The notes beneath the pieces are model-generated. The model was not told where the DNA came from. It did no database searches and worked only from the letters and a program-made list of their open reading frames with translations. Below, piece by piece: positions 23,065 to 60,180 of a stretch of 64,000 bases of DNA (positions are counted from its first letter, which is position 1; every line of letters starts with the position of its first letter). A program made the translations under genes and the position numbers. Source of the DNA: Haliclystus octoradiatus (Eukaryota; Cnidaria; Staurozoa; Stauromedusae; Haliclystidae); NCBI GenBank assembly GCA_916610825.1, contig OU744454.1, positions 12,973,141 to 13,037,140 on the forward strand. The letters are read 5' to 3'.

Positions 23065-23470
23065 AGCAGCAGACAAGTACATGTTTCTGGCCATTAGCCT
23101 TCAGCAGTACTGCTCAGTGAGCGAACGAGGAACTGACTTCAGTATATAACCTAAGTCAAGATGAGTTATAAATGTGGTGAAAAAATTCATCACATGAAAA
23201 AAACATCTGTGCCATACCAGAGTGCTCAAACTACCGAAGTAGTGGGCAATGCATATCGCAAATAGTATAGACACATCCCAAGTTGATAGTGCTTAAAATT
23301 GCACATGCGCAATTGAGACATACATAGCAGCAGACAAGTACATGTTTCTGGCCAATAGGCTTTATCAGTACTGCTCAGTGAGCGAACAAGTCAAGATGAG
23401 TTATAAATGTGGTGAAAAAATTCATCACATGAAAAAAACATCTGTGCCATACCAGAGTGCTCAAACTACC
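23065..23470 (-). repeat. decayed 261-bp hammerhead repeat, 1.5 copies
   Basis: One full unit (23065-23325) and a partial unit (23326-23470) of the repeat found at 37766-42349, here on the minus strand. The hammerhead core is mutated in both: CTGCTGA instead of CTGATGA in the first, CTGATAA in the second. The NRF-1-like palindrome is also broken (GCACATGCGC). These are older, probably inactive copies. The second stops abruptly at an ATT run. Confidence 0.9.
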
Positions 23471-23495
23471 AAATTATTATTATTATTATTATTAT
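23471..23495. repeat. (ATT)n before assembly gap
   Basis: A short ATT run joins the truncated 261-bp repeat to the gap. It probably continues into the gap, as the other ATT runs here are long. Confidence 0.9.
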
Positions 23496-23695
23496 NNNNN
23501 NNNNNNNNNNNNNNNNNNNNNNNNNNNNNNNNNNNNNNNNNNNNNNNNNNNNNNNNNNNNNNNNNNNNNNNNNNNNNNNNNNNNNNNNNNNNNNNNNNNN
23601 NNNNNNNNNNNNNNNNNNNNNNNNNNNNNNNNNNNNNNNNNNNNNNNNNNNNNNNNNNNNNNNNNNNNNNNNNNNNNNNNNNNNNNNNNNNNNNN
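23496..23695. other. assembly gap (200 N)
   Basis: Exactly 200 undetermined bases. The round size suggests a placeholder. It hides the 5' part of the first Penelope copy. Confidence 0.99.
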
Positions 23696-24688
23696 GGGAT
23701 CACCATTGGGACCTTTGTTAGCTAATGTATTTATGTCCAATATTGAAAAAATTTTATCAGAATCTAATAAATTACCAGAGTTCTACTGGCGCTATGTAGA
23801 TGACACCTTGGCAATTGTCAACAATAGAAAAGAAGCAGAAAACTTATTATCAATTCTGAATGCAGCACACTCCTCATTAAACTTCACGATTGAGTTAGAG
23901 GAAAACAAAAATCTACCTTTTCTTGGAATCAAAATGACCAATACCGCACAGAAATATCAACAAGTGTACATCGAAAAACAACAAACAAAGGACTTCTTTT
24001 ACATTATCAGAGTCATGTGGACCAAAGGTATAAAACCGGTATTTTGAAGACAATGCTTCACAGAGCGCATCGTCTTTGTTCCTCTGAAGCTGATTTTAAT
24101 ATTGAATGTAAAGTACTTTTTAACATTTTTAGTAAACTTAAGTATCCGCCCCGTGTTTTTAATTCTATTTTAAATAAAATGCTAAGTAATGATTTTAATT
24201 CTCCAGTTTTACCAGACGATAATTTAAAATATGTTAGTATAGTTTTACCTTTTAAAGACCAACATTCATGTGATGAAACAAGAAAAGAACTTTACCGTTT
24301 AAATTGTAAAATAAGTGTAAAGTTTAATGCTATTTTTAAAAGTAAGAAGCTCAACGATGACTTGCGTACCCGTGAGGAGAAGCCAGATTTGTTAACCCAG
24401 CAATGTGTCATATATCATTTTAAATGTGGTCTGTGCGAAGCAGACTATGTTGGCTATACATGCCGGCACTTATATGAACGCATAGATGAACATAACAAAA
24501 GTAACCTTGGTACACACGTCCGTCAAGAGCACGGAATATCTACTGATCAATTTGAAAAACATTTTAGAATAATAAAAAAGTGCAAAAATAAATTCGATTG
24601 TCTCGTGAATGAAATGCTGGCAATTCAAGAACTGAAACCAACATTAAACGTTCAGGGCGATTCCATCCGGGCCAAAGTTTTCAAATAA
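23696..24688 (+). pseudogene. Penelope-like RT/GIY-YIG, copy 1 (partial, frameshifted)
   Basis: This copy emerges from the assembly gap inside the RT palm (GSPLGP). It continues through YVDD and LPFLGIK and then loses one G near 23945 relative to copies 2 and 3. The shift ends that frame at 24047. The correct frame resumes from about 23950 and runs to the normal stop at 24686, so the thumb and GIY-YIG region are otherwise intact. The missing base is either a real disabling mutation or a base-call error beside the gap. Confidence 0.93.
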
Positions 24689-24854
24689 CTGCATGCATTT
24701 CATATCTATAGGCTAGTTACCATAGTTACTGTTGTCACTGATATAGATCTCATATAATTGTAAATATTTTTCATGATGTAACTTTACCCTCAAGGGGCAA
24801 ACATTTTTATGTATAAATATATCTTAATTAATAATAAAAAACATTCACTTGAGA
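24689..24854 (+). other. Penelope inter-ORF (pseudo-LTR) region 1
   Basis: Non-coding, AT-rich sequence repeated almost exactly at 27318 and 29947. It precedes the start codon of the next copy and probably holds the element's promoter and 3' end. No clear promoter motif is seen. Confidence 0.75.
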
Positions 24855-27317
24855 ATGGCTGAAGTCAATCAGTCGAAACGTTGTGCAAATTTAGTTGTGT
24901 TGTTATTTTGTACCAAAATTATCACCAAGAAGATTCTGATAAATATTATAAAACGCAACAATCAGTTACTACTTTTCCGGAGATTAGAAAAGTGTAGCAA
25001 CCACCTAGTCAGTTGTGAAACTGGTCTAGAATATTTACGACTCTGTTTAAACTTTGGCGTTACACCAACATTTGCCAGAGTAGAGAGTGTAAAGTCAAAA
25101 AAATGGAAAGATTCTACGGAAAGTTATCAGATGAATATCATCAAAGAAGAAATCAAAGTGAGAACAAGGGAACTGAAAAAATTCCAACTAGAGGTAAATG
25201 GTCTATTCGTAGATATAAAAGAGAAATTCACCACAATCATGTATTTATCAATTTTAAAGGCCTTAAGTATTATGAGAGAGCGAAAGTATCAGTCATTAAC
25301 AAGAAAACATGGCAAGAAATTAAGCCGGCTAATAAATAATACAACAGATGTTGATCAACACATTAATAACTTGTCAGATTACTCATTGAACTTTTTTGAA
25401 AAATTAGTATTGTCGAGAGGGCTAGATTTCTCGTTACCAAGACGATCAACGCGTAGGGACGAAATTGACACGAAGGCTGAGTTTGAGAAGGCATACTTCA
25501 GGGCAGAAAGATATTTACCATCTGACGAGAAAGATATCACAGCATCTACGCTCAAGTCTATTGCCTTGAATTACTGCCGTTTACAAGGACAGAAACCACC
25601 CAAGTCTTTACTACGAGCAATATCATCTTTAAAACGCAATAAGAACATTGTAATAACTAAGCCGGATAAGGGTAATGGTATCGTCATTATGAACAAAGAA
25701 CATTATAATAGACTATTGATGGAAGCATCGATTGACAAACGAGATAAATTTACCTTTGTAGACCCGAATAAAAAACGTAGAGGGAGGCCTGCAAAACATC
25801 CCCACCCTCTCCTTTATAAAGAAAGAATGGTAAATAAATGTATAAAAAAAATTTTACCAGAAGAAATAGCAACAAAACTTTGTCCTAAAGGCTCTCGGCT
25901 AGCACATTTATATGGCCTACCAAAAACACATAAAACTAACTTACAAATGCGACCAGTTCTATCGGCAGTGGGATCTTATAACTTTCTTTTGGCAAAATGG
26001 CTAGATGACAAGCTCAAACCTTTGGCTATCAATAGTTTTACAATATTAGATATATTAAATTTTAGCGAAGAAATACGCAACGTAAAATTCCGAAAAGGTA
26101 GTATTATGGTCTCTTTTGACGTGAGTGCTCTGTTTACCAACGTCCCCCTACTGGAAACAATTGAAATTTTGGTTACGGATGCATTTTCTAACAATTGGTT
26201 CAATGAAAAGTATTCCTTGAATTTAACGCCTGATGATCTGCGTGACCTATTATTGATCAGTACCAAAGATCAATTGTTTCAATTCGATGGTGAGCTGTAT
26301 GAACAGTCAGATGGAGTGGCAATGGGATCACCATTGGGACCTTTGTTAGCTAATGTATTTATGTCCAATATTGAAAAATTTTTATCAGAATCTAATAAAT
26401 TACCAGAGTTCTACTGGCGCTATGTAGATGACACCTTGGCAATTGTCAACAATAGAAAAGAAGCAGAAAACTTATTATCAATTCTGAATGCAGCACACTC
26501 CTCATTAAACTTCACGATTGAGTTAGAGGAAAACAAAAATCTACCTTTTCTTGGAATCAAAATGACCAATACCGGCACAGAAATATCAACAAGTGTACAT
26601 CGAAAAACAACAAACAAAGGACTTCTTTTACATTATCAGAGTCATGTGGACCAAAGGTATAAAACCGGTATTTTGAAGACAATGCTTCACAGAGCGCATC
26701 GTCTTTGTTCCTCTGAAGCTGATTTTAATATTGAATGTAAAGTACTTTTTAACATTTTTAGTAAACTTAAGTATCCGCCCCGTGTTTTTAATTCTATTTT
26801 AAATAAAATGCTAAGTAATGATTTTAATTCTCCAGTTTTACCAGACGATAATTTAAAATATGTTAGTATAGTTTTACCTTTTAAAGACCAACATTCATGT
26901 GATGAAACAAGAAAAGAACTTTACCGTTTAAATTGTAAAATAAGTGTAAAGTTTAATGCTATTTTTAAAAGTAAGAAGCTCAACGATGACTTGCGTACCC
27001 GTGAGGAGAAGCCAGATTTGTTAACCCAGCAATGTGTCATATATCATTTTAAATGTGGTCTGTGCGAAGCAGACTATGTTGGCTATACATGCCGGCACTT
27101 ATATGAACGCATAGATGAACATAACAAAAGTAACCTTGGTACACACGTCCGTCAAGAGCACGGAATATCTACTGATCAATTTGAAAAACATTTTAGAATA
27201 ATAAAAAAGTGCAAAAATAAATTCGATTGTCTCGTGAATGAAATGCTGGCAATTCAAGAACTGAAACCAACATTAAACGTTCAGGGCGATTCCATCCGGG
27301 CCAAAGTTTTCAAATAA
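24855..27317 (+). CDS. Penelope-like reverse transcriptase with GIY-YIG endonuclease, copy 2
   Basis: An intact 820-aa retroelement protein that copies its RNA into DNA at a nick made by its own endonuclease. RT motifs appear in order: DKGNG (about residue 270), YGLPKTHK (354), RPVLSAVGS, FDVSALFTNVP (421), MGSPLGP (489), catalytic YVDD (523), LPFLGIK (567) and the HRKTTNKG block. The C-terminal domain has VIY...YVGYT (GIY-YIG, 729-743), a CGLC pair followed by histidines typical of Penelope endonucleases, the arginine in RHLYERIDEH and a glutamate in NEMLAIQELKPTLN. The start is the first ATG of the frame, at 24855; the N-terminal residues lie in repeated terminal sequence, so the true start could be further in. 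It differs from copy 3 by Phe for Ile after NIEK. Confidence 0.95.
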   Translation: MAEVNQSKRCANLVVLLFCTKIITKKILINIIKRNNQLLLFRRLEKCSNHLVSCETGLEYLRLCLNFGVTPTFARVESVKSKKWKDSTESYQMNIIKEEIKVRTRELKKFQLEVNGLFVDIKEKFTTIMYLSILKALSIMRERKYQSLTRKHGKKLSRLINNTTDVDQHINNLSDYSLNFFEKLVLSRGLDFSLPRRSTRRDEIDTKAEFEKAYFRAERYLPSDEKDITASTLKSIALNYCRLQGQKPPKSLLRAISSLKRNKNIVITKPDKGNGIVIMNKEHYNRLLMEASIDKRDKFTFVDPNKKRRGRPAKHPHPLLYKERMVNKCIKKILPEEIATKLCPKGSRLAHLYGLPKTHKTNLQMRPVLSAVGSYNFLLAKWLDDKLKPLAINSFTILDILNFSEEIRNVKFRKGSIMVSFDVSALFTNVPLLETIEILVTDAFSNNWFNEKYSLNLTPDDLRDLLLISTKDQLFQFDGELYEQSDGVAMGSPLGPLLANVFMSNIEKFLSESNKLPEFYWRYVDDTLAIVNNRKEAENLLSILNAAHSSLNFTIELEENKNLPFLGIKMTNTGTEISTSVHRKTTNKGLLLHYQSHVDQRYKTGILKTMLHRAHRLCSSEADFNIECKVLFNIFSKLKYPPRVFNSILNKMLSNDFNSPVLPDDNLKYVSIVLPFKDQHSCDETRKELYRLNCKISVKFNAIFKSKKLNDDLRTREEKPDLLTQQCVIYHFKCGLCEADYVGYTCRHLYERIDEHNKSNLGTHVRQEHGISTDQFEKHFRIIKKCKNKFDCLVNEMLAIQELKPTLNVQGDSIRAKVFK

Positions 27318-27483
27318 CTGCATGCATTTCATATCTATAGGCTAGTTACCATAGTTACTGTTGTCACTGATATAGATCTCATATAATTGTAAATATTTTT
27401 CATGATGTAACTTTACCCTCAAGGGGCAAACATTTTTATGTATAAATATATCTTAATTAATAATAAAAAACATTCACTTGAGA
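27318..27483 (+). other. Penelope inter-ORF (pseudo-LTR) region 2
   Basis: Essentially identical to 24689-24854. It contains CTGAAG...GTCGAAACG just after the start of the next copy, which resembles a broken hammerhead but lacks the required core. Confidence 0.75.
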
Positions 27484-29946
27484 ATGGCTGAAGTCAATCA
27501 GTCGAAACGTTGTGCAAATTTAGTTGTGTTGTTATTTTGTACCAAAATTATCACCAAGAAGATTCTGATAAATATTATAAAACGCAACAATCAGTTACTA
27601 CTTTTCCGGAGATTAGAAAAGTGTAGCAACCACCTAGTCAGTTGTGAAACTGGTCTAGAATATTTACGACTCTGTTTAAACTTTGGCGTTACACCAACAT
27701 TTGCCAGAGTAGAGAGTGTAAAGTCAAAAAAATGGAAAGATTCTACGGAAAGTTATCAGATGAATATCATCAAAGAAGAAATCAAAGTGAGAACAAGGGA
27801 ACTGAAAAAATTCCAACTAGAGGTAAATGGTCTATTCGTAGATATAAAAGAGAAATTCACCACAATCATGTATTTATCAATTTTAAAGGCCTTAAGTATT
27901 ATGAGAGAGCGAAAGTATCAGTCATTAACAAGAAAACATGGCAAGAAATTAAGCCGGCTAATAAATAATACAACAGATGTTGATCAACACATTAATAACT
28001 TGTCAGATTACTCATTGAACTTTTTTGAAAAATTAGTATTGTCGAGAGGGCTAGATTTCTCGTTACCAAGACGATCAACGCGTAGGGACGAAATTGACAC
28101 GAAGGCTGAGTTTGAGAAGGCATACTTCAGGGCAGAAAGATATTTACCATCTGACGAGAAAGATATCACAGCATCTACGCTCAAGTCTATTGCCTTGAAT
28201 TACTGCCGTTTACAAGGACAGAAACCACCCAAGTCTTTACTACGAGCAATATCATCTTTAAAACGCAATAAGAACATTGTAATAACTAAGCCGGATAAGG
28301 GTAATGGTATCGTCATTATGAACAAAGAACATTATAATAGACTATTGATGGAAGCATCGATTGACAAACGAGATAAATTTACCTTTGTAGACCCGAATAA
28401 AAAACGTAGAGGGAGGCCTGCAAAACATCCCCACCCTCTCCTTTATAAAGAAAGAATGGTAAATAAATGTATAAAAAAAATTTTACCAGAAGAAATAGCA
28501 ACAAAACTTTGTCCTAAAGGCTCTCGGCTAGCACATTTATATGGCCTACCAAAAACACATAAAACTAACTTACAAATGCGACCAGTTCTATCGGCAGTGG
28601 GATCTTATAACTTTCTTTTGGCAAAATGGCTAGATGACAAGCTCAAACCTTTGGCTATCAATAGTTTTACAATATTAGATATATTAAATTTTAGCGAAGA
28701 AATACGCAACGTAAAATTCCGAAAAGGTAGTATTATGGTCTCTTTTGACGTGAGTGCTCTGTTTACCAACGTCCCCCTACTGGAAACAATTGAAATTTTG
28801 GTTACGGATGCATTTTCTAACAATTGGTTCAATGAAAAGTATTCCTTGAATTTAACGCCTGATGATCTGCGTGACCTATTATTGATCAGTACCAAAGATC
28901 AATTGTTTCAATTCGATGGTGAGCTGTATGAACAGTCAGATGGAGTGGCAATGGGATCACCATTGGGACCTTTGTTAGCTAATGTATTTATGTCCAATAT
29001 TGAAAAAATTTTATCAGAATCTAATAAATTACCAGAGTTCTACTGGCGCTATGTAGATGACACCTTGGCAATTGTCAACAATAGAAAAGAAGCAGAAAAC
29101 TTATTATCAATTCTGAATGCAGCACACTCCTCATTAAACTTCACGATTGAGTTAGAGGAAAACAAAAATCTACCTTTTCTTGGAATCAAAATGACCAATA
29201 CCGGCACAGAAATATCAACAAGTGTACATCGAAAAACAACAAACAAAGGACTTCTTTTACATTATCAGAGTCATGTGGACCAAAGGTATAAAACCGGTAT
29301 TTTGAAGACAATGCTTCACAGAGCGCATCGTCTTTGTTCCTCTGAAGCTGATTTTAATATTGAATGTAAAGTACTTTTTAACATTTTTAGTAAACTTAAG
29401 TATCCGCCCCGTGTTTTTAATTCTATTTTAAATAAAATGCTAAGTAATGATTTTAATTCTCCAGTTTTACCAGACGATAATTTAAAATATGTTAGTATAG
29501 TTTTACCTTTTAAAGACCAACATTCATGTGATGAAACAAGAAAAGAACTTTACCGTTTAAATTGTAAAATAAGTGTAAAGTTTAATGCTATTTTTAAAAG
29601 TAAGAAGCTCAACGATGACTTGCGTACCCGTGAGGAGAAGCCAGATTTGTTAACCCAGCAATGTGTCATATATCATTTTAAATGTGGTCTGTGCGAAGCA
29701 GACTATGTTGGCTATACATGCCGGCACTTATATGAACGCATAGATGAACATAACAAAAGTAACCTTGGTACACACGTCCGTCAAGAGCACGGAATATCTA
29801 CTGATCAATTTGAAAAACATTTTAGAATAATAAAAAAGTGCAAAAATAAATTCGATTGTCTCGTGAATGAAATGCTGGCAATTCAAGAACTGAAACCAAC
29901 ATTAAACGTTCAGGGCGATTCCATCCGGGCCAAAGTTTTCAAATAA
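27484..29946 (+). CDS. Penelope-like reverse transcriptase with GIY-YIG endonuclease, copy 3
   Basis: An intact 820-aa copy with the same RT (DKGNG, FDVSALFTNVP, YVDD) and GIY-YIG (VIY, YVGYT, CGLC, NEMLAIQELKP) motifs as the preceding copy. It carries Ile after NIEK, as does copy 1, so the Phe of copy 2 is the derived state. No stops or frameshifts. With copy 2 it is the best candidate source of active reverse transcriptase in the window. Expression cannot be judged from sequence. Confidence 0.95.
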   Translation: MAEVNQSKRCANLVVLLFCTKIITKKILINIIKRNNQLLLFRRLEKCSNHLVSCETGLEYLRLCLNFGVTPTFARVESVKSKKWKDSTESYQMNIIKEEIKVRTRELKKFQLEVNGLFVDIKEKFTTIMYLSILKALSIMRERKYQSLTRKHGKKLSRLINNTTDVDQHINNLSDYSLNFFEKLVLSRGLDFSLPRRSTRRDEIDTKAEFEKAYFRAERYLPSDEKDITASTLKSIALNYCRLQGQKPPKSLLRAISSLKRNKNIVITKPDKGNGIVIMNKEHYNRLLMEASIDKRDKFTFVDPNKKRRGRPAKHPHPLLYKERMVNKCIKKILPEEIATKLCPKGSRLAHLYGLPKTHKTNLQMRPVLSAVGSYNFLLAKWLDDKLKPLAINSFTILDILNFSEEIRNVKFRKGSIMVSFDVSALFTNVPLLETIEILVTDAFSNNWFNEKYSLNLTPDDLRDLLLISTKDQLFQFDGELYEQSDGVAMGSPLGPLLANVFMSNIEKILSESNKLPEFYWRYVDDTLAIVNNRKEAENLLSILNAAHSSLNFTIELEENKNLPFLGIKMTNTGTEISTSVHRKTTNKGLLLHYQSHVDQRYKTGILKTMLHRAHRLCSSEADFNIECKVLFNIFSKLKYPPRVFNSILNKMLSNDFNSPVLPDDNLKYVSIVLPFKDQHSCDETRKELYRLNCKISVKFNAIFKSKKLNDDLRTREEKPDLLTQQCVIYHFKCGLCEADYVGYTCRHLYERIDEHNKSNLGTHVRQEHGISTDQFEKHFRIIKKCKNKFDCLVNEMLAIQELKPTLNVQGDSIRAKVFK

Positions 29947-30202
29947 CTGCATGCATTTCATATCTATAGGCTAGTTACCATAGTTACTGTTGTCACTGAT
30001 ATAGATCTCATATAATTGTAAATATTTTTCTTGATGTAACTTTACCCTCAAGGGGCAAACATTTTTATGTATAAATATATCTTAATTAATAATAAAAAAC
30101 ATTCACTTGAGAATGGCTGAAGTCAATCAGTCGAAACGTTGTGCAAATTTAGTTGTGTTGTTATTTTGTACCAAAATTATCACCAAGAAGATTCTGATAA
30201 AA
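29947..30202 (+). pseudogene. Penelope terminal region 3 and truncated copy 4
   Basis: The terminal region repeats, with one change (TTTTCTTG for TTTTCATG). The fourth reading frame starts at 30113 and ends after about 30 codons, where the sequence changes abruptly at ATTCTGATAAA into (ATT)n. Only the first part of the fourth copy is present. Confidence 0.9.
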
Positions 30203-31233
<1,031 letters not shown>

Positions 31234-32182: not shown

Positions 32183-33557
<1,375 letters not shown>

Positions 33558-37250: not shown

Positions 37251-37517
37251 GATTGTTAGATACAATCTGAAAACAAGAATTTCAAGTTTGAATGACCAGG
37301 TTATCAATAGTAAACAATTTGCCTGATAGGTTTGAATATGCAGGCACGAGAATAAGTTTTACCGTAAGAACTATAAGGATACAAAAACACAATAGATAAA
37401 GTAACCGTAGAACAACAATAGACTAAAACTTCAATAAATATATATATATTAGCTTATGTTGTCTGTACTGTTTTCATAGTGCTCAATGATATTTGTAAAT
37501 GAAGAGCTATATATAAC
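37251..37517. other. 5' flank of the PAN-TSP1 gene
   Basis: Presumed promoter or 5' UTR region. No TATA box or other motif can be singled out in this AT-rich sequence. Confidence 0.4.
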
Positions 37518-37705
37518 TAAATTAATTGGAAAAACACAAAAAATCAAACATTAATTTTTGCTACTTCAAGTTTCACGCCTATAAAGCGATTATCAGGCAA
37601 TCTAATCTTAGATTAGATCAGATTAGATTACCTGATGATCACTTATAGTCGTGAAACTTGAAGTAGCAAAAATGAATGTTTGATTTTTTGTGTTTTTCCA
37701 ATTAA

Positions 37706-37709
<4 letters not shown>
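37518..37709. mobile_element. palindromic element with hammerhead-like arms
   Basis: Two about 88-bp inverted arms around a TCTAATCTTAGATTAGA centre. Each arm, read outwards, has a hammerhead-like string: plus arm CTGATGA (37632-37638) then GAAA (37653-37656) and ACTTGAAGTA; minus arm CTGATAA (rc of 37590-37596) then GAAA. Stem II (CGC/GCG) and stem III (ACT/AGT) can form, followed by a GTA cleavage triplet. Stem I is weak in both. A shortened relative lies at 59480-59600. Confidence 0.5.
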
Positions 37710-37752
<43 letters not shown>

Positions 37753-37765
37753 CTCTATATATATG
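37710..37765. repeat. (AT)n microsatellite
   Basis: AT dinucleotide run between the palindromic element and the first 261-bp repeat. A similar run follows the last repeat at 42350. Confidence 0.9.
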
Positions 37766-38026
37766 CTATGTATGTCTCAATTGCGCATGCGCAATTTTGA
37801 GCACTATCGACTTGGGATGTGTCTATACTATTTGCGATATGCATTGCCCACTACTTCGGTAGTTTGAGCACTCTGGTATGGCACAGATGTTTTTTTCATG
37901 TGATGAATTTTTTCACCACATTTATAACTCATCTTGACTTGGGTTATATACTGAAGTCAGTTCCTTGTTCGCTCACTGAGCAGTACTGATGAAGGCTAAT
38001 GGCCAGAAACATGTACTTGTCTGCTG
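37766..38026 (+). repeat. 261-bp hammerhead repeat (retrozyme-like), copy 1
   Basis: First of four units with exact 261-bp period; the other three follow the hAT element at 41567. No coding potential. It contains an 18-bp palindrome near its start and a type I hammerhead at its end. Size, tandem layout and ribozyme type fit metazoan retrozymes. Confidence 0.9.
37779..37796. promoter_or_regulatory. 18-bp palindrome with NRF-1-type core
   Basis: AATTGCGCATGCGCAATT is a perfect palindrome whose centre TGCGCATGCGCA matches the NRF-1 binding consensus. It recurs unchanged in each of the four units here but is mutated in the decayed array at 23 kb. It may be the internal promoter of the repeat; that role is inferred. 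Confidence 0.55.
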
Positions 38027-38028
38027 CT
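37979..38028 (+). ncRNA. hammerhead ribozyme, type I, copy 1 (intact core)
   Basis: Core CTGATGA (37986-37992) and GAAA (38006-38009). Stem I pairs 37979-37985 with 38022-38028: seven pairs, one of them G-U. Stem II pairs GGCT with GGCC around an AAT loop, outside an A-A juxtaposition. Stem III is a short ACA/TGT with a six-base loop. The cleavage triplet is GTC, so the cut falls between 38021 and 38022. Very short stem III and an open stem I define type I motifs, which often act as dimers in tandem transcripts. Cleavage would release 261-nt monomers. Confidence 0.85.
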
Positions 38029-38034
38029 ATGTAT
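38027..38034. repeat. hAT target site duplication, left
   Basis: CTATGTAT, identical to 41567-41574. It duplicates the start of the 261-bp unit. Confidence 0.95.
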
Positions 38035-38225
38035 CAGGGTTGTTAATTTGGATTTTTTGAAGCCAAATTTGACGAATTTGGATTTTTTTTTAGTCTTTTG
38101 GCTTCAGAAGTTGACGTTTGGCTTTTCCTTAAAAATTGGCCTTTTTTGGCCTTTTTGAACAATTTCTTCTTAATTTTTTACATCAGTTCGAATTCTGTCG
38201 ATTCTCTGCCATGCAGCTCAAATTA

Positions 38226-38336
38226 TTAACTTGCTCAAGTCTCACTTTTACTTTTAGGATTTTGATATGTTGGTAAGTGACCGCTTACCGCTCGTCAAAG
38301 TGCGGTATATCAAAGCGGGACTTATAGATCAGTCAA
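38226..38336 (-). mobile_element. small MITE with 9-bp TSD, copy inside hAT
   Basis: 111 bp with ends TTAACTTG...AGTCAA, flanked by CTCAAATTA and TTCAAATTA (8 of 9 match). It is the reverse complement of the element at 56904-57028. The interior can form a hairpin around CCGCTTACCGC. Short ends and 9-bp duplications suggest a Mutator-like element. Confidence 0.75.
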
Positions 38337-39100
38337 TTCAAATTATTGCTTGTGACGTGTTCAAATTTGTGTACGTCACAGAATAACAGGGTGTTCCCCT
38401 ATACCCTATATGTTACATAGAGCATATAGCAATGACATCTTCATTTGACTTGACCACAAAACTTCCGCGTGTGTCTAGTCTATTGTGTTCCAATTTGACG
38501 TGAGTTATGTCAACATTTTTTACACAATAGACCAATGAATAGAAAATAGAATAGAAAGCATACAGTGTATATTTCTGAAATAGCCCGCTATAATAGCATA
38601 AATACCGCTTTGATTAATATTCTCAATTATTTCAACTTCCATGTTGAATTATACGATTTCTAGAAATGTTGTAAAGAATGTGAAGCTGCTATTGGTAATA
38701 GTTATATTTAAATGCAATAATAATTTTGAACCAAGATAGTTAATGCCGTTAACAGTATTTTTGTCATTTTTGAATGAATGTAAAATGATTAGATGTAAAA
38801 AATTCTGCGGCGTCAGAAGAATAGACTGCCGGAAAAAATTATCGTTTCAAAGAAATGACTAACAAGCCAAATGACTGACTGACTGAAATGACTGACAAAC
38901 CAAATAAGCATCGTCATTAATAGTCATTAATTGCATATGCATCAGTTCCGCATAAACCGCATATATAAGTGCTAAACGTTACGATATGCCATACAGTAAT
39001 CCACGATCAATATCAGCTACACTGATGTAGTTTACCGTGATTACACTGCTTAATATATATACAGTTAGAACAAAGAGGTTTATTTTATTGAAATTCAGTT

Positions 39101-41143
39101 ATGTCAAAGTGGAAAGGAAGGTATGAAAGCGGAAGAAAATACAGTAAGTCTTGGGAGAATAGATTTGCATGGGTGAAGCAAGCTCCTGATGGCACTGAAA
39201 GTGCTTTTTGTAAATTATGCCGTGTTACGATGTTGCCAAAAATCTCAAATTTGCAAAATCACGAAAAAACCGATAAGCATAAGAAAACTGTTAGCTCGAT
39301 TAATTCAACTAGGTCATTGCACACAATGATGACTCCAACGTTGATGTCCGATCAGTTAAAGACATTTGAAATAAAAATGGCTGTAGCCATTGCTTGTCAC
39401 GCAGCTGTGAGCAGCATTGATCACATAGGAGAGATTGTCAAGGATGGCAACAAAAAAGGCGTTGCCGGAGATATGAAGCTGCATAGAAATAAATGCACAA
39501 AGGTTATTACCAAAGTTGTTGCCGAAACATTCAAGGAGGAGTTAAAAGACAAATTAGTTGGAAAAAAATATTCGGTATTAATTGACGAATCGACTGATGT
39601 TTCAGCCCTGAAGAATATGGCGATTGTTGTGCGATTTTTTGATGAACAGTCAAATTCTATCGGAACATCGTTTGGTGCACTTATGCCTGTGATTGGTACA
39701 ACTGGGGAAGAGCTATTTACATCATTAAAAGAATGGCTGCAGTCAATGGACCTTACCTTATCTGATTGTATAGGATATGGCTCAGATGGTGCAGCTGCTA
39801 TGGTTGGAGAGAACAATTCCCTCTGGAGCAGAATTAAACTAGCATCTCCTGATTGCATACAAGTTAAATGTATATGTCATTCATTGAGCCTCTGTATACA
39901 ACATGCCTTTGAAAAATTACCATCAAACCTTGGTTTTCTGCTAAGAGAGATACCTAAATGGTTTTCTAAAAGCATTATTCGGAGGGAGGCATATAAAGAT
40001 TTGTTTGACGTTATCAATGCAGAAGGTGCTAATGCAATTCAAGGAACGCCAATGCCTTTTCAAAAGTTTTGCGCTACCCGTTGGCTTGTCAGAGGAAAAA
40101 TTCTTCTGAACTTATTGTTTAATTGGGAAGAGCTGAAGGCATATTTTATGTGCGCTGAAACTGGCTCAACACAGCAAGTAAGGTATAAAGCCCGCCTACT
40201 CTATGAGATGTTATCGGATCCTATCAATTTTTTATACTTTCATTTTACATCTCCGATAGTTACTGAATTTGAAAGGGTAAACTCTTTTTTCCAAGCAACT
40301 AACGCTGACCCTGCATTAATGGAGAACGAACTTACTCTACATTACGATAGCCTTAAGTCAAGGATTTATTATCCAGACAAAGTACGATTATTACCACTAG
40401 CCAATGTTGATTTCGGCGGGAAATTTTTAGCTGAAGTAGCAAAATATTTATCAGCTAATGATAATTCGGCAGCTTCTGTGGCCGCTGTTTCTACTATTAA
40501 GGAACGATGCTATGCCTTTTTAGTTGAAGCCTTGAAGCAAGTAGAAAAGAAACTTCCTAATGTAAGGAATGTATTCAAGAAACTATGTTACTTAAGTCCC
40601 GATTTAGTTTTAAGTCATACTACACGTCTCCCATTTCATGAATTGCCACTGCCTCATTTATTAAACACAAACTATTCAACTATAGAGGAACAATATAGAA
40701 AAATGATAGTTGTGAACTGGAAGGAAGAGGCCGTTTTTGGAGGCAATATCCCATCTGACAGTGCTGAATTTTGGTCAATGGTTCATCGGTACAAAAATTC
40801 AGCTGGCACTCAAACATTCAAGGAATTATCTGAATATGCACTTTCTTGCCTCTCCCTCCCTGTAAGTAACGCTGTTGCAGAGCGGGTATTCTCATACGTC
40901 ACAGCAGTGAAAACAAAACAGCGGAACAGAATGGGAATTGAGCTCCTAGATTCTATAGTACGAATTCGAGCCAATCTTCATTTCAACAAAAAATGTTGTA
41001 AAGACTTAAAAGTTACAAAAACAATGATCGACAAATTTGGTTTTATGTATGATTACCAGAGGAAGACAGCTGACAACGAAGAAGACACTATTGATCCTGC
41101 CGACATTGATAACCATAGCACCCTACAGCTGGATTTATTTTAA
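39101..41143 (+). CDS. hAT transposase, 680 aa, intact
   Basis: Cut-and-paste transposase that binds the element ends and moves the transposon. The N-terminus has a BED-like zinc finger (FCKLCRVTML...NHEKTDKHKK, about residues 35-63). The RNase H-like fold starts at SVLIDESTDVS with the first catalytic Asp, then IGYGSDGAAAMVG with the second, then the CICHSLSLCIQHA segment and the KFCATRW motif of the inserted helical domain. The C-terminal hAT dimerisation region is LSCLSLPVSNAVAERVFSYV (about 595-615). The first in-frame ATG fits the usual length. No stops or frameshifts, so with intact ends and TSD the element may still be active. Confidence 0.95.
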   Translation: MSKWKGRYESGRKYSKSWENRFAWVKQAPDGTESAFCKLCRVTMLPKISNLQNHEKTDKHKKTVSSINSTRSLHTMMTPTLMSDQLKTFEIKMAVAIACHAAVSSIDHIGEIVKDGNKKGVAGDMKLHRNKCTKVITKVVAETFKEELKDKLVGKKYSVLIDESTDVSALKNMAIVVRFFDEQSNSIGTSFGALMPVIGTTGEELFTSLKEWLQSMDLTLSDCIGYGSDGAAAMVGENNSLWSRIKLASPDCIQVKCICHSLSLCIQHAFEKLPSNLGFLLREIPKWFSKSIIRREAYKDLFDVINAEGANAIQGTPMPFQKFCATRWLVRGKILLNLLFNWEELKAYFMCAETGSTQQVRYKARLLYEMLSDPINFLYFHFTSPIVTEFERVNSFFQATNADPALMENELTLHYDSLKSRIYYPDKVRLLPLANVDFGGKFLAEVAKYLSANDNSAASVAAVSTIKERCYAFLVEALKQVEKKLPNVRNVFKKLCYLSPDLVLSHTTRLPFHELPLPHLLNTNYSTIEEQYRKMIVVNWKEEAVFGGNIPSDSAEFWSMVHRYKNSAGTQTFKELSEYALSCLSLPVSNAVAERVFSYVTAVKTKQRNRMGIELLDSIVRIRANLHFNKKCCKDLKVTKTMIDKFGFMYDYQRKTADNEEDTIDPADIDNHSTLQLDLF

Positions 41144-41566
41144 TTTGAGCAGTTTAAACATAGGTTTTCTTAAAAATAATAGTGACAATAGTACATCATA
41201 GCTAATAGATATCGTACTTTACAAATTTTTACATATAGATATTGAGTATAGGAATAGTAATATGGCCTTATATAACTATTAAATATTTAATTAATTATAT
41301 ACCATCTTTATAAGCCGCATTTCAAAATTGCAAATTTACTAAATTCACTGCAAATTTTCAATACTTGTATAATATGTAATCACTTTGCAATTTTGTCAAC
41401 ATCATGTGTTGTTTTTGTATGTCTATTTGTACGAATTGATAAGAAATGATAAACTTAAAATTTTCCGAGTGCAGCGAGGAAAATTTTTTTTGAGACATTT
41501 GGCCTTTTCTGGATTTTTCCGGTCAGCGGTTTGGCTTTTTGCCTCGTTTTTGTTTTCCCAACCCTG

Positions 41567-41574
41567 CTATGTAT
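41567..41574. repeat. hAT target site duplication, right
   Basis: CTATGTAT, matching 38027-38034. Confidence 0.95.
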
Positions 41575-41779
41575 GTCTCAATTGCGCATGCGCAATTTTG
41601 AGCACTATCGACTTGGGATGTGTCTATACTATTTGCGATATGCATTGCCCACTACTTCGGTAGTTTGAGCACTCTGGTATGGCACAGATGTTTTTTTCAT
41701 GTGATGAATTTTTTCACCACATTTATAACTCATCTTGACTTGGGTTATATACTGAAGTCAGTTCCTTGTTCGCTCACTG

Positions 41780-41829
41780 AGCAGTACTGATGAAGGCTAA
41801 TGGCCAGAAACATGTACTTGTCTGCTGCT
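41780..41829 (+). ncRNA. hammerhead ribozyme, copy 2 (intact core)
   Basis: Same secondary structure as copy 1, with CTGATGA, GAAA and the GTC cleavage triplet. Stem I extends across the boundary into the next unit. Confidence 0.85.
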
Positions 41830-42040
41830 ATGTATGTCTCAATTGCGCATGCGCAATTTTGAGCACTATCGACTTGGGATGTGTCTATACTATTTGCGAT
41901 ATGCATTGCCCACTACTTCGGTAGTTTGAGCACTCTGGTATGGCACAGATGTTTTTTTCATGTGATGAATTTTTTCACCACATTTATAACTCATCTTGAC
42001 TTGGGTTATATACTGAAGTCAGTTCCTTGTTCGCTCACTG

Positions 42041-42090
42041 AGCAGTACTGATAAAGGCTAATGGCCAGAAACATGTACTTGTCTGCTGCT
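42041..42090 (+). ncRNA. hammerhead ribozyme, copy 3 (mutated core)
   Basis: The core reads CTGATAA: the invariant G8, the general base position, is A. Self-cleavage should be lost, so a transcript would stay joined here. Confidence 0.8.
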
Positions 42091-42301
42091 ATGTATGTCT
42101 CAATTGCGCATGCGCAATTTTGAGCACTATCGACTTGGGATGTGTCTATACTATTTGCGATATGCATTGCCCACTACTTCGGTAGTTTGAGCATTCTGGT
42201 ATGGCACAGATGTTTTTTTCATGTGATGAATTTTTTCACCACATTTATAACTCATCTTGACTTGGGTTATATACTGAAGTCAGTTCCTTGTTCGCTCACT
42301 G

Positions 42302-42351
42302 AGCAGTACTGATGAAGGCTAATGGCCAGAAACATGTACTTGTCTGCTGCT
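42302..42351 (+). ncRNA. hammerhead ribozyme, copy 4 (intact core)
   Basis: Core, stems and cleavage site as in copy 1. The 3' strand of stem I lies at the edge of the array but is complete. Confidence 0.83.
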
Positions 42352-42411
42352 ATATATATATATATATATATATACGTATAATAAAAAGAGTCAAAGACTA
42401 TACCAAACTAA
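42350..42411. repeat. (AT)n and AGTCAAAGACTA-containing flank
   Basis: AT run, then AATAAAAAGAGTCAAAGACTA immediately before the Helitron 5' end. The GTCTTTGACT motif recurs beside AAT runs at 46730, 49990 and 50535. Confidence 0.8.
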
Positions 42412-49984: not shown

Positions 49985-53965
<3,981 letters not shown>

Positions 53966-53967
53966 TA

Positions 53968-55270
<1,303 letters not shown>

Positions 55271-55879
55271 TATAATTATAATTATATTAAATAGATAATA
55301 AAAACACACATGGTACCTCTGGTATAAACTTACATAAATTGCAGCTATTGTTAAAAGGGATAAAGCCTATTGTATAGCACATAATAAACTATGACTTATC
55401 TAAGTTTGAAACTGTTGACGGTATTTGATAATGCTTCAACAAACAGCAGCTCGATATTTATTCTGCGAAAACACGACAGTCGTGTTCAACAAAGTCTAGA
55501 AACCTTCTATACGTTGGCAATGAAAACTGTCTGGTTCTTTTAAAAGCGCGCACTAATTTATCTAAAAGTGGTTGCACATTTAAAATAAATAATAAACTAC
55601 CATGATCCTAAGTTTGACTATAATTGCTTGACTCTTTTATACCTAAGTTATTTACTTTGCAAATACCAAGTATACTATACTCTTTCCGCTTTGTTGACAA
55701 AGTCTCAAAGCCATTTTTACTTTTTGAATAATAAGGTCTCTCAAATCAAAGCAAGATATGCCGATGACTACATATCACTCAACATGTATCACATGCATAC
55801 ACATGTATCGACGTAACTTGATAAAATTTCATGAAAAAGTATCAAGTTTAATATGTTTAGATATATAACCATCCAAGTT

Positions 55880-56790
55880 GCCAAAGGTTTTTTGGGGGGA
55901 GGGGGTGTCAAATGTAGGTCTTTCACTTACTTCAACTTGTAGGTCTCTCCAAATAAATTGAGACATGCAGATGACTAGATATCATTAGGTAGTACTCTTA
56001 GACATGCATCAAAATCAATTCAAAATATTTCTTGAAAATCGACCGAGTTTATATTTAGATACAGCCACTAAAGTTGACAAAGGGGGCATTTGGGTTTATT
56101 CAAAAAGCAAGGTTTACCTTTTCTCCCATTTCTAGGTAGGTTTCTCAACATAAAACAAGGGATGCCGATGATTATATATCATCAGAGATTACTCCTTGAC
56201 ACGTATCGAAGTAAATTCAAAACATTTCTTGACAAAATATCTAGTTTGTATTTAGATAGAGCCATTTAAGTTGACAAGGGGTGCATTTTGGGTTTTTCAA
56301 AAAGCTGGGTTCACACTTTCTCCAGCTTCTAGGTCCCTCAAATTAAAACAAGGGGTGCCAATGATTAGATATCATCAGAGATTACTCCTTGACAAGTATC
56401 GAAGTAAATTCTAAACATTTCTTGACAAAATATCTGGTTTGTATTTAGATAGAGCCATTTAAGTTGACAAGGGGTGCATTTTGGGTTTTTCAAAAAGCTG
56501 GGTTCACACTTTCTCCAGCTTCTAGGTCCCTCAAATTAAAACAAGGGGTGCCAATGATTAGATATCATCAGAGATTACTCCTTGACAAGTATCGAAGTAA
56601 ATTCTAAACATTTCTTGACAAAATATCTGGTTTATATTTAGATAGAGCCATTTAAGTTGACAAGAAGTGCATTTTGGTTTTTCAAAAAGCTGGGTTCACA
56701 CTTTCTCCAGCTTCTAGGTCCGTCAAATTAAAACAACGGGTGCCAATGATTAGATATCATCAGAGATTATTCCTTGACACATATCGAAGT
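55880..56790 (+). repeat. 193-bp tandem subrepeats, left arm
   Basis: Repeated blocks marked by GATATCATCAGAGATTACTC at 56173, 56366, 56559 and (variant) 56752. They continue after the LTR insertion at 57914-58500 and appear inverted at 59600-60180. Units include TTTCAAAAAGCTGGGTTCAC and ATTTAAGTTGACAAGGGGTG. Confidence 0.85.
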
Positions 56791-56794
56791 AAAT

Positions 56795-57913
56795 TGTCGT
56801 ATAGCTATAGCTGACTTTGCTATAGCGACATTGAGTCCCAGCGAACACAACGACGGTCAAACTGGAACTAATTTATTATTCAAACTACACATAGATAGAT
56901 TACTTGACTGATCTATAAGTCCCGCTTTGATATACCGCACTTTGACGAGCGGTAAGCGGTAAGCGGTTGGTACCGCACTTACCAACATATCAAAATCGTA
57001 AAAGTAAAGTGAGACTTGGGAAAGTCAAATAGATTACAGGAATTACATAGGGTGATGACGTCAATTACACATAGAATTACAACTTCACATATACAAGACA
57101 GAACAGCTTGATTATTACAAATTACATTACACAACATCCCCCTTCCAACTTTAAGGAGTGGCAATCATACTTTTACAAATTTTATCAAACAATTTCTAGC
57201 AACTTACGATAATACATTATTAAACAAAACCTTTAATGTTTCTTGACAAATCCCTGCATGTTTCAGCAGTTTATAAAGTCCATTGCATGTTTCAGCAGTT
57301 TCCTTGCATGTTTCAGCATTCCTTGCATGTTTCAGCATTCCTAGCATGTTTCAGCATTTTCAATAGTGTCGTTGTTTCTTTTAGCAGAGGTGGTTTAACT
57401 TGCCTGCTTAGTTGATTTCTGTGTTTCTTTAGGTAGATTTAATCTCCTTAATAGGCTTAATACTTCGTCTCGTTGTGTTTCTTCTTGGCCGATTTGTCTC
57501 TGCAGAGGTGATTTTAACATGCACATCCCTTTGATATCTTCTCGTGTTTCGATTATATTTAGCAGACGTGATATTTAACTTGCTTTATACAGTATACTTC
57601 AACTGTTTAGTTGAAGCCCAATAAGGGACGCCAAATTGTCGTATAGCTATAGCTGACTTTGCTATAGCGACATTGAGTCCCAGCGAACACCCGGGGACGC
57701 CAAATTGTCGTATAGCTATAGCTGACTTTGCTATAGCGACATTGAGTCCCAGCGAACACAACGACGGTCAAACTGGAACTAATTTATTATTCAAACTACA
57801 CATAGATAGATTACAGGAATTACATAGGGTGATGACGTCAATTACACATAGAATTACAACTTCACATATACAAGACAGAACAGTTTGATTATTACAAATT
57901 ACATTACACAACA
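56795..57913 (-). mobile_element. non-coding LTR element copy 2 (TRIM-like), TSD TAAAT
   Basis: LTRs at 56795-57136 and 57706-57913. After removing a MITE and its duplicated site from the first, both are 208 bp. On the minus strand: 5' LTR, primer-binding region TGGCGTCCCTTATTGGGC, about 500 bp non-coding, purine tract GGAAGGGGGA, 3' LTR. TAAAT is duplicated at 56790-56794 and 57914-57918. A partial LTR copy (57636-57690) lies beside the full one. Internal CATGTTTCAGCA is repeated five times (57258-57355). Inserted in a foldback subrepeat. Confidence 0.87.
56904..57028 (+). mobile_element. small MITE with 9-bp TSD, copy inside LTR
   Basis: 125 bp with ends TTGACT...AGTCAA, flanked by ATAGATTAC on both sides. 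The other LTR has a single uninterrupted ATAGATTAC. GAGCGGTAAGCGGTAAGCGG carries a 7-bp duplication absent from the hAT copy. Confidence 0.85.
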
Positions 57914-58500
57914 TAAATTAAAAACATTTCTTGAAAAAGATCTAGTTTATATTTAGATAGAGCCATTTAAGTTGACAAGGGGTGCATTTTGGGTTTTTCA
58001 AAAAGCTGGGTTTTACACTTTTTCCAACTTCTAGGTCTCTGAAGATACGGTAAATTGAGACAGGCAGATGACTAGATATCACTAGATAGGACTCTTAGAA
58101 ATGTATCGAAGTAAATTCAGAACATTTCTTCAAAAAACATCTAGTTTATATTTAGATAGAGCAATTTAACTTGACAAAGGGTGCATTTTGGGTTTTTCAA
58201 AAAGCTGGGTTCACACTTTTTCAAGCTTCTAGGTCCGTCAAATTAAAAACAAGGGGTGCCGATGATTAGATATCATCAGAGATTACCCCTTAAAACGTAT
58301 TGAAAGTAAATTCAGAACATTTCTTCAAAAAGCATCTAGTTTATATAAATTATATTTTGATAGAGCCATTTAAGTTGACAAGGGATGCATTTTGTGTTTT
58401 TCAAAAAGCTGGGTTCACACTTTCTCCAGCTTCTTGGTCCGTCAAATTAAAACGAGGGATGCCGATGACTAGATATCATCAGATATTACTTGTAAACGAC
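57914..58500 (+). repeat. 193-bp subrepeats, left arm continued
   Basis: Continuation of the tandem subrepeats after the LTR element (AAACATTTCTTGA, GGGTGCATTTTGGG, GATTAGATATCATCAGAGAT). Confidence 0.8.
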
Positions 58501-59600: not shown

Positions 59601-60180
59601 TGAACTAGATATTTTTTCAAGAAATGTTTTGAATACTTGTCTAAGAGAAATCTTTATTGATATCTAGTCATCGGCATCCCTTATTTTAATATGAGGGACC
59701 TAGAAATTGGAAAAAGTGTAAATCCGGCATTTTGAAAAGACGCAAATGCCCCCTTTGATAACTTAAATGGCTCAATCTGAATATAAACTAGATATTTTGT
59801 CAAGAAATGTTTTGAACCTACTTCAATATTTGTCAAAGAGTAACCTCTAATGATTCTTAATCATCAGCACCCCTTGTTTCACTTTGAGGGACCTAGAAGT
59901 TGGAGAAGGTGTAAGCCCAGCTTTTTGAAAAACCCCAAATGTCCCCTTTGTCAACTTAAGCGGCTATATCTAAATATAAGCTGGATCCTTTTTCGAGAAA
60001 TATTTTGAATTTACTTCGATACATGTCTAAGAGTAGTATCTAGTGATATCTAGTCATCTGTATGTCTCAATTTATTTGGATAGACCTATAAGTTTAAGTG
60101 AAAGACCAGCATTTTGACCCCCCTCCCCCAAAAAAACCTTTGTCAACCTGGATGGTTATAAATTTCAAAACTTGATACTT
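59601..60180 (-). repeat. 193-bp subrepeats, right arm (inverted)
   Basis: Reverse complement of the left-arm units (CTTTTTGAAAAACCCCAAAT, CATCAGCACCCCTTGTTT), with more divergence. Confidence 0.8.

Follow-up and report, generated by a model that had tools for sequence, protein, structure and literature searches.

The window analysed here is a 64,000-nt stretch of contig OU744454.1 of the staurozoan Haliclystus octoradiatus (assembly GCA_916610825.1, positions 12,973,141 to 13,037,140 of the forward strand), and its central feature is an array of a 261-bp repeat with hammerhead ribozyme motifs, a candidate retrozyme. An initial annotation of this DNA, made from its letters, had proposed at 37766-42349 a tandem 261-bp repeat in which three of four hammerhead motifs have an intact core. 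Both statements were confirmed: the array consists of four units, 99.6-100% identical to the 261-bp reference unit, and the core reads CTGATGA in three of them (core position C3 lies at 37986, 41787, 42048 and 42309 in units 1 to 4), while the third unit is predicted to be inactive because its G8 has changed to A. The cleavage positions had also been placed exactly 261 nt apart, which holds for the last three predicted cuts (units 2-4); the first is set apart by a hAT transposon that had gone unmentioned, with a transposase open reading frame at 39101-41143 (Dimer_Tnp_hAT, 30.3 bits and over the cut-off in a profile search). As judged from the sequence, the four units once formed a single array in a (TA)n tract, and the hAT element entered it at the start of unit 2. 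The start of the reverse transcription that would have made this array is placed by inference at TGCTGCTA, at its 3' end (Table 1).

Table 1. Features of the retrozyme locus and of related or neighbouring elements, in window coordinates
Feature	Position	Strand	Basis or remark
(TA)n target tract, 5' flank of the array	37712..37764	.	Tandem Repeats Finder; array start ~37764
Retrozyme unit 1	37766..38026	+	100% identity to reference unit
Hammerhead of unit 1, intact core, predicted cut 38021/38022	37979..38028	+	Descriptor match and core letters
hAT target duplication CTATGTAT, left copy	38027..38034	.	Right copy 41567-41574
hAT transposon, 3532 bp, nested in the array	38035..41566	+	Termini CAGGGTTG/CAACCCTG and 8-bp duplication
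Unit 2, intact hammerhead core, predicted cut 41822/41823	41567..41827	+	Opens with the right copy (8 bp) of the hAT duplication
Unit 3, core CTGATAA (G8 to A), predicted inactive	41828..42088	+	Predicted cut after 42083
Unit 4, intact hammerhead core, predicted cut 42344/42345	42089..42349	+	Similarity, descriptor match and core letters
TGCTGCTA, where the array has its fixed 3' end; forms the 3' strand of stem I in the last hammerhead; (TA)n follows	42345..42352	+	Fixed 3' ends of mapped arrays
Second, more diverged two-unit copy of the 261-bp family	23067..23476	-	BLAST, 97.7% and 82.3%
Tandem Penelope-like element (PLE), ending in (ATT)n	23696..30201	+	829-aa frames 24828-27317 and 27457-29946

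The motif has the type I topology, with a stem I of seven pairs (one of them G.U) and a stem III of three. A relaxed descriptor, written after the motif had been seen and allowing a mismatch at the base of stem II, matched the window three times, at the three intact motifs, and gave no match in 100 dinucleotide shuffles; on folding, the hammerhead (-11.4 kcal/mol) lies 1.2 kcal/mol above the minimum (-12.6). The 12-nt strand of stem III is self-complementary at 10/12 positions (duplex -7.6 kcal/mol) and would thus suit a two-RNA hammerhead, as in newts and axolotl (PMC7229834; this and the other papers are cited for the portions consulted). All ten core nucleotides are kept in 160 of the 175 aligned units, and mismatches to the majority are scarcer in the ribozyme (core 22/1760, stem I 5/1229, stem II 11/1229, stem III 0/1056) than elsewhere in the unit (552/31039); these low rates, uncorrected for shared ancestry, are suggestive of selection on the hammerhead. 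The unit has a GC content of 0.41, and its longest stop-free run, read in a tripled unit, is 62 codons. An exact search for the hammerhead pattern in viral contigs and in bacterial and archaeal genomes gave no matches.

The family extends across the host genome (261.8 Mb in 33 contigs). A similarity search returned at least 104 unit matches (40 of 1078 candidates scored), and exact patterns counted genome-wide gave 228 canonical 3' ends, 423 intact-core hammerheads and 168 unit-unit junctions, with none for any reversed-pattern control. We mapped 114 arrays in regions, most of them 1.7-2.5 kb, that were read either by similarity (37) or by 3' end (63, from the first 100 listed places: C1 39, C2 24; C4 9/29); the former set favours long arrays by design, and the latter is unselected for array length or 5' end. 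Eight arrays were dropped before the 5' ends were counted (a hAT-made junction, one cut by the region edge and six with a non-canonical 3' end), and the 106 kept comprise 42 found by similarity or in the window and 64 found by 3' end.

These arrays, of about 0.1 to 7.2 units, are dispersed, variably truncated at the 5' end and flanked by AT tracts. On the 3' side they stop some 8 nt beyond the predicted cut and give way to (TA)n or (ATT)n: a scripted classification of the 3' flanks of the 106 arrays gave TA 82, TAA 13, ATT 9, other AT 1 and a hAT junction 1. The 3'-end set had been picked by the AT letters that follow the unit; in the similarity and window set without the hAT junction, in which arrays were kept only where the unit reached its last base, the AT classes account for 41/41 (38 TA, 2 ATT, 1 TAA). 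Among 19 extra loci on C1 with an intact hammerhead and outside the 3'-end list, 2 continue into another unit and 17 leave it no more than about 13 nt beyond the cut, for the most part into AT-rich sequence, one of them exactly at the cut. Both flanks carry the same type of repeat in 76 of the 106 arrays, so that the tract probably predates the insertion; target duplications are not separable from the microsatellite in most 261-bp arrays. To judge by these junctions, a fixed 3' end combined with a variable 5' truncation is the signature of target-primed reverse transcription and not of satellite DNA.

One 5' position stands out. The first nucleotide after the predicted cut is the exact start of 10/106 arrays, and 12/106 start within 1 nt of it (the further two carry one extra matching C), whereas start-dinucleotide-matched rates predict 0.6 for the three positions and the tallest other start position holds 5 arrays. 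The similarity and window set contributes 8 of these (9 within 1 nt) among 42 arrays and the 3'-end set 2 (3) among 64. Independently of array length, a genome-wide pattern search found 24 starts at the cut preceded by two A/T letters; three of these, with TT before the start, are probably point mutants of unit junctions, which leaves 21, and one TT start falls in L101, a locus in which the unit itself bears this change. Two control positions in the same C|T context gave 12 (7 with TT) and 3 (2 with TT). Among the arrays that start at the cut are some with 1, 2 and 4 units, followed by a few nt beyond the final cut. Starts are also in excess in the zone of the array ends, 6-9 nt beyond the cut (11/106 against 2.1 expected), and an array with a start in this 3'-end zone thus spans roughly one or two complete units.

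Units of the same array are alike. Over 30 informative sites they are discordant in 45 of 3364 comparisons (1.3%), against a mean of 11.7%, and never below 9.2%, after shuffling of units among arrays, and the variants private to one multi-unit array fall in all covering units (7) or in one unit (46), never in some of them (0). Such uniformity would be expected if one unit had served as template, as in a circle, with ordinary mutation afterwards; a uniform source array would give a like pattern. Tandem and nearly identical units could suggest an ordinary satellite spread by unequal crossing-over; we reject this explanation, to which we allow almost no probability, since the arrays are short, dispersed, fixed at one end, truncated at the other and set in AT tracts, and variants common to only part of an array are absent. 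Nor were long arrays with a free phase at both ends present in the regions read.

Taken together, we read the 261-bp repeat as a non-autonomous, non-coding metazoan retrozyme of the non-long-terminal-repeat (non-LTR) kind, whose ribozyme-cut RNA, perhaps partly circular, would be copied by machinery of the PLE type (probability about 0.8, from the genomic sequence). The design of metazoan retrozymes, which the initial annotation had recognised, is supported by the unit size, the type I hammerhead, the short dispersed arrays, the low GC content and the lack of a long frame; movement through RNA, which it had assumed, gains support because the 3' ends are fixed, the 5' ends truncated and the starts in excess at the cut. 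In the life cycle that we propose, a transcript made by read-through or from the element's own promoter would cut itself at GTC^TGC, and some of the cut RNAs may become circular. A target-primed reverse transcriptase would then start where CUA(U), which adjoins and overlaps the 3' strand of stem I, pairs with a nicked TA or ATT target, and copying would span one or more units and stop at random, at the 5' end of the cut RNA or perhaps after whole laps. Each unit carries at the same place (37782-37793 in the window) a perfect palindrome, TGCGCATGCGCA, which is intact in 102/110 units and stands out in this AT-rich genome, and a related GCGCATGCG occurs in the 183-bp family described below; we take it to resemble an NRF1 site and, presumably, to be a possible internal promoter.

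Several observations weigh against this reading: (i) The basal pair (10.1/11.1) of stem II, which has 3-4 pairs, is an A.A mismatch, on which the initial annotation was silent, although the parts that it listed (a seven-pair stem I, a 3-bp stem III and a short stem II) stand. (ii) An Rfam scan of the window, which it had named as a check, returned no hammerhead at the gathering score in the 64 kb, and with the limit relaxed to E=10 neither a 4.9-kb piece nor a 66-nt stretch with one motif gave any. (iii) The excess of starts at the cut is weak in the 3'-end set alone (P 0.025 and 0.038 under uniformity). (iv) Positions 77-80, also AT-rich, hold 8 starts, so the excess in the 3'-end zone is not unique. 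(v) Among the 23 sampled loci of the 183-bp family none starts exactly at its cut, L131 starting 3 nt after it. (vi) A (TA)n tract was found at none of 11 ends of the host's PLE family (10 exits and the window copy).

The A.A mismatch and the missing Rfam match would be expected if the hammerhead were decayed or inactive and the starts at the cut reflected a transcription start or chance. We consider this improbable, since the excess sits on the exact nucleotide of the predicted cut, the core is intact in the great majority of units, and an axolotl hammerhead whose stem II has U.U in the equivalent position still cuts (PMC7229834). Moreover, the mismatch seems not to stem from recent decay, because A.A is the majority state across the copies of the family, and the C.A of some more diverged copies, which have C at 10.1 together with an altered stem III loop, is also a non-standard pair. 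In the whole genome, Rfam Hammerhead_1 gave 8 sub-threshold matches, none of them in the 261-bp family.

What form the template takes is a separate question. It could be a linear transcript of several units, its 5' end made by the ribozyme, with no circle involved and the uniform arrays deriving from uniform sources, and we give this somewhat less than an even chance. A linear oligomer readily yields cut-start arrays of 1, 2 or 4 units plus a few nt, which a circle does not; against it stand the private variants, none of which (0/53) is common to only some units of an array, and the circular intermediate demonstrated for related elements of other animals (PMC7229834). As evidence for circles, starts in the 3'-end zone count for little because starts also cluster at positions 77-80, and they can partly be due to short homology to the TA tracts, which may explain much of the excess; the whole-lap argument is further weakened because clusters of 5' starts outside the 3'-end zone occur in both hammerhead families. 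The fuller proposal, that the junctions record the life cycle, with the cut end written at the exact nucleotide, circles written as whole laps from a fixed start, TA/ATT priming and ribozyme folding mutually exclusive because this start overlaps the 3' strand of stem I, and a PLE acting in trans on RNA circles, is put forward very tentatively, as doubtful.

As regards the helper, the window contains a tandem PLE whose protein passes the cut-off for RVT_1 and falls just short of it for GIY-YIG (22.4 against 22.6 bits). Among the named matches listed, its relatives are mostly from corals at about 50-55% identity, and the best matches of both the PLE and the hAT proteins are at about 55%. The PLE family forms identical tandem arrays with a period of 2629, nine units long on C8, and among 15 other 3' ends that were read, 5 continue into PLE sequence and 10 exit at GATTCTGATAAA into AT-rich DNA. 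In Anolis, PLE copying starts inside the template and prefers AT-rich, ATT-containing DNA (PMC11167929). Since the fixed 3' ends of the two families are alike but none of the PLE ends read lies in (TA)n, the comparison supports machinery of the PLE type and not the window PLE itself, and on this circumstantial evidence we judge PLE-kind machinery the most likely helper of the 261-bp family, at slightly better than even odds. A LINE-type retrotransposon as mobiliser is unlikely, though it has points in its favour: 5' truncation and the target duplications of the 183-bp family are LINE-like too, and none of the ends read from the window PLE family lay in a (TA)n tract. Against it, in a comparison that covered this PLE family, the PLE of this host likewise shows tandem arrays, a fixed internal 3' end and AT-rich surroundings, and published PLE copying has an internal start and AT-rich targets (PMC11167929). 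PLEs also carry minimal type I hammerheads (PMC7761336, PMC11167929), and with one present in the window the 261-bp unit might be a piece, the pseudo-LTR, of an autonomous PLE. We reject this as very improbable: 41 query proteins (the window PLE and 40 of 120 listed homologues) gave a PLE-like match at just 1 of 119 fetched loci (L106), and the unit has no similarity to the PLE non-coding pieces with which it was compared. An Rfam search of the PLE 3' region gave nothing credible. Short-period arrays derived from PLEs (810, 569 and 839 bp; C7:17191988-17195482, C5:18730892-18734413 and C1:34119187-34121958) are probably internally deleted.

Three of the four sub-threshold Rfam matches that were read belong to a distinct family, whose unit measures 183 bp and carries a canonical type I hammerhead with a palindromic stem III strand, ACACGTGT. 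Its 23 sampled loci (L128, L129, L131 and L147-L166: the three Rfam matches and 20 of 40 scored candidates) hold arrays of about 0.5-2 units that end 7-29 nt past their own cut and have variable 5' ends; at the sequence level, the family repeats the 3' anchoring of the 261-bp family. Seven of the 23 start in the 3'-end zone, at positions 12-25 (P 0.0013 under uniformity, the zone having been chosen after the starts were seen), and eight start at positions 71-83 (L147, L154, L159, L162-L166); whole laps are thus not established in this family. The words shared by the two flanks of 20 loci, two of which lie in AAT repeats, are longer (mean 8.7) than with swapped flanks (4.6; maximum of 500 shuffles 5.85), which implies target duplications, longer than 4 bp as expected of metazoan non-LTR retrozymes where these have any.

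The kind of element is already known, and the 261-bp family is, on its sequence features, a further metazoan retrozyme. With the metazoan non-LTR retrozymes (Cervera and de la Pena 2020, PMC7229834) it shares the type I hammerhead, a non-coding unit within 170-400 nt, the occurrence as dimers to multimers, the low GC content and the co-existence with PLEs, and its units lie head to tail without an LTR layout; it differs in the A.A at the base of stem II, where axolotl HHR_Amex2 has U.U (PMC7229834). The hammerhead repeats of newt and axolotl have a short stem III, as here (three pairs and a 6-nt loop in our family), and longer units, of about 330-350 against 261 bp (PMC7229834). PLEs with minimal hammerheads share the tandem arrays, the internal start of reverse transcription, the AT-rich targets and a hammerhead near that start (PMC11167929), whereas the 261-bp unit has no protein gene; in the Anolis PLE, according to the portion of PMC11167929 consulted, the start shares no homology with the cleaved DNA, and ends at the hammerhead cut were not detected. 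In R2 elements with an HDV-like ribozyme the ribozyme-made 5' end of the RNA coincides with the 5' junctions of inserted copies, as we propose here, but the ribozyme is another one and the element is autonomous and site-specific in 28S rRNA genes (PMC3774820). The LTR retrozymes of plants are non-coding and bounded by hammerheads like the 261-bp family, and a circular RNA intermediate is known for them; they carry a type III hammerhead in LTRs, a primer-binding site and a 4-bp target duplication (PMC7229834, PMC7761336), and the type I topology and head-to-tail units set our family apart from them.

The junctions are what the family adds. It is described here from genomic sequence, and its junction anatomy is not part of the account in PMC7229834, as far as the portion consulted goes; in the literature searched, with supplements, many subscription papers and bioRxiv preprints lying outside it, we found no description of cut-site junctions in metazoan retrozymes. 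According to a review, metazoan retrozymes lack any motif that points to their helper retrotransposon (PMC7761336, section 9); in the 261-bp family, the copy ends give a hint of the mode of movement. As the family has hundreds of copies, many of them almost identical, whose 3' junctions are fixed, whose targets are AT microsatellites and some of whose 5' ends fall at the predicted cut, both the template form and the helper become testable, and the family offers indirect support for cleavage in vivo by a hammerhead whose stem II is imperfect.

Other features of the window remain to be mentioned. The older retrozyme copy ends in ATT/TAA-rich sequence and adjoins the PLE array and a run of 200 N (23496-23695) between the two, probably an assembly gap, because of which the 5' end of this older array is uncertain. 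A foldback element at 37489-37738, with 96-bp arms that are 89% complementary, adjoins the (TA)n target of the main array. Very long (ATT)n-type microsatellites, of up to 444 copies, lie at 30203-31043, 33195-33554, 50017-50911 and 53969-55301, and other tandem repeats with a period of 193-204 bp, some of them apparently related, at 55971-56795, 57914-58489 and 59632-60058.

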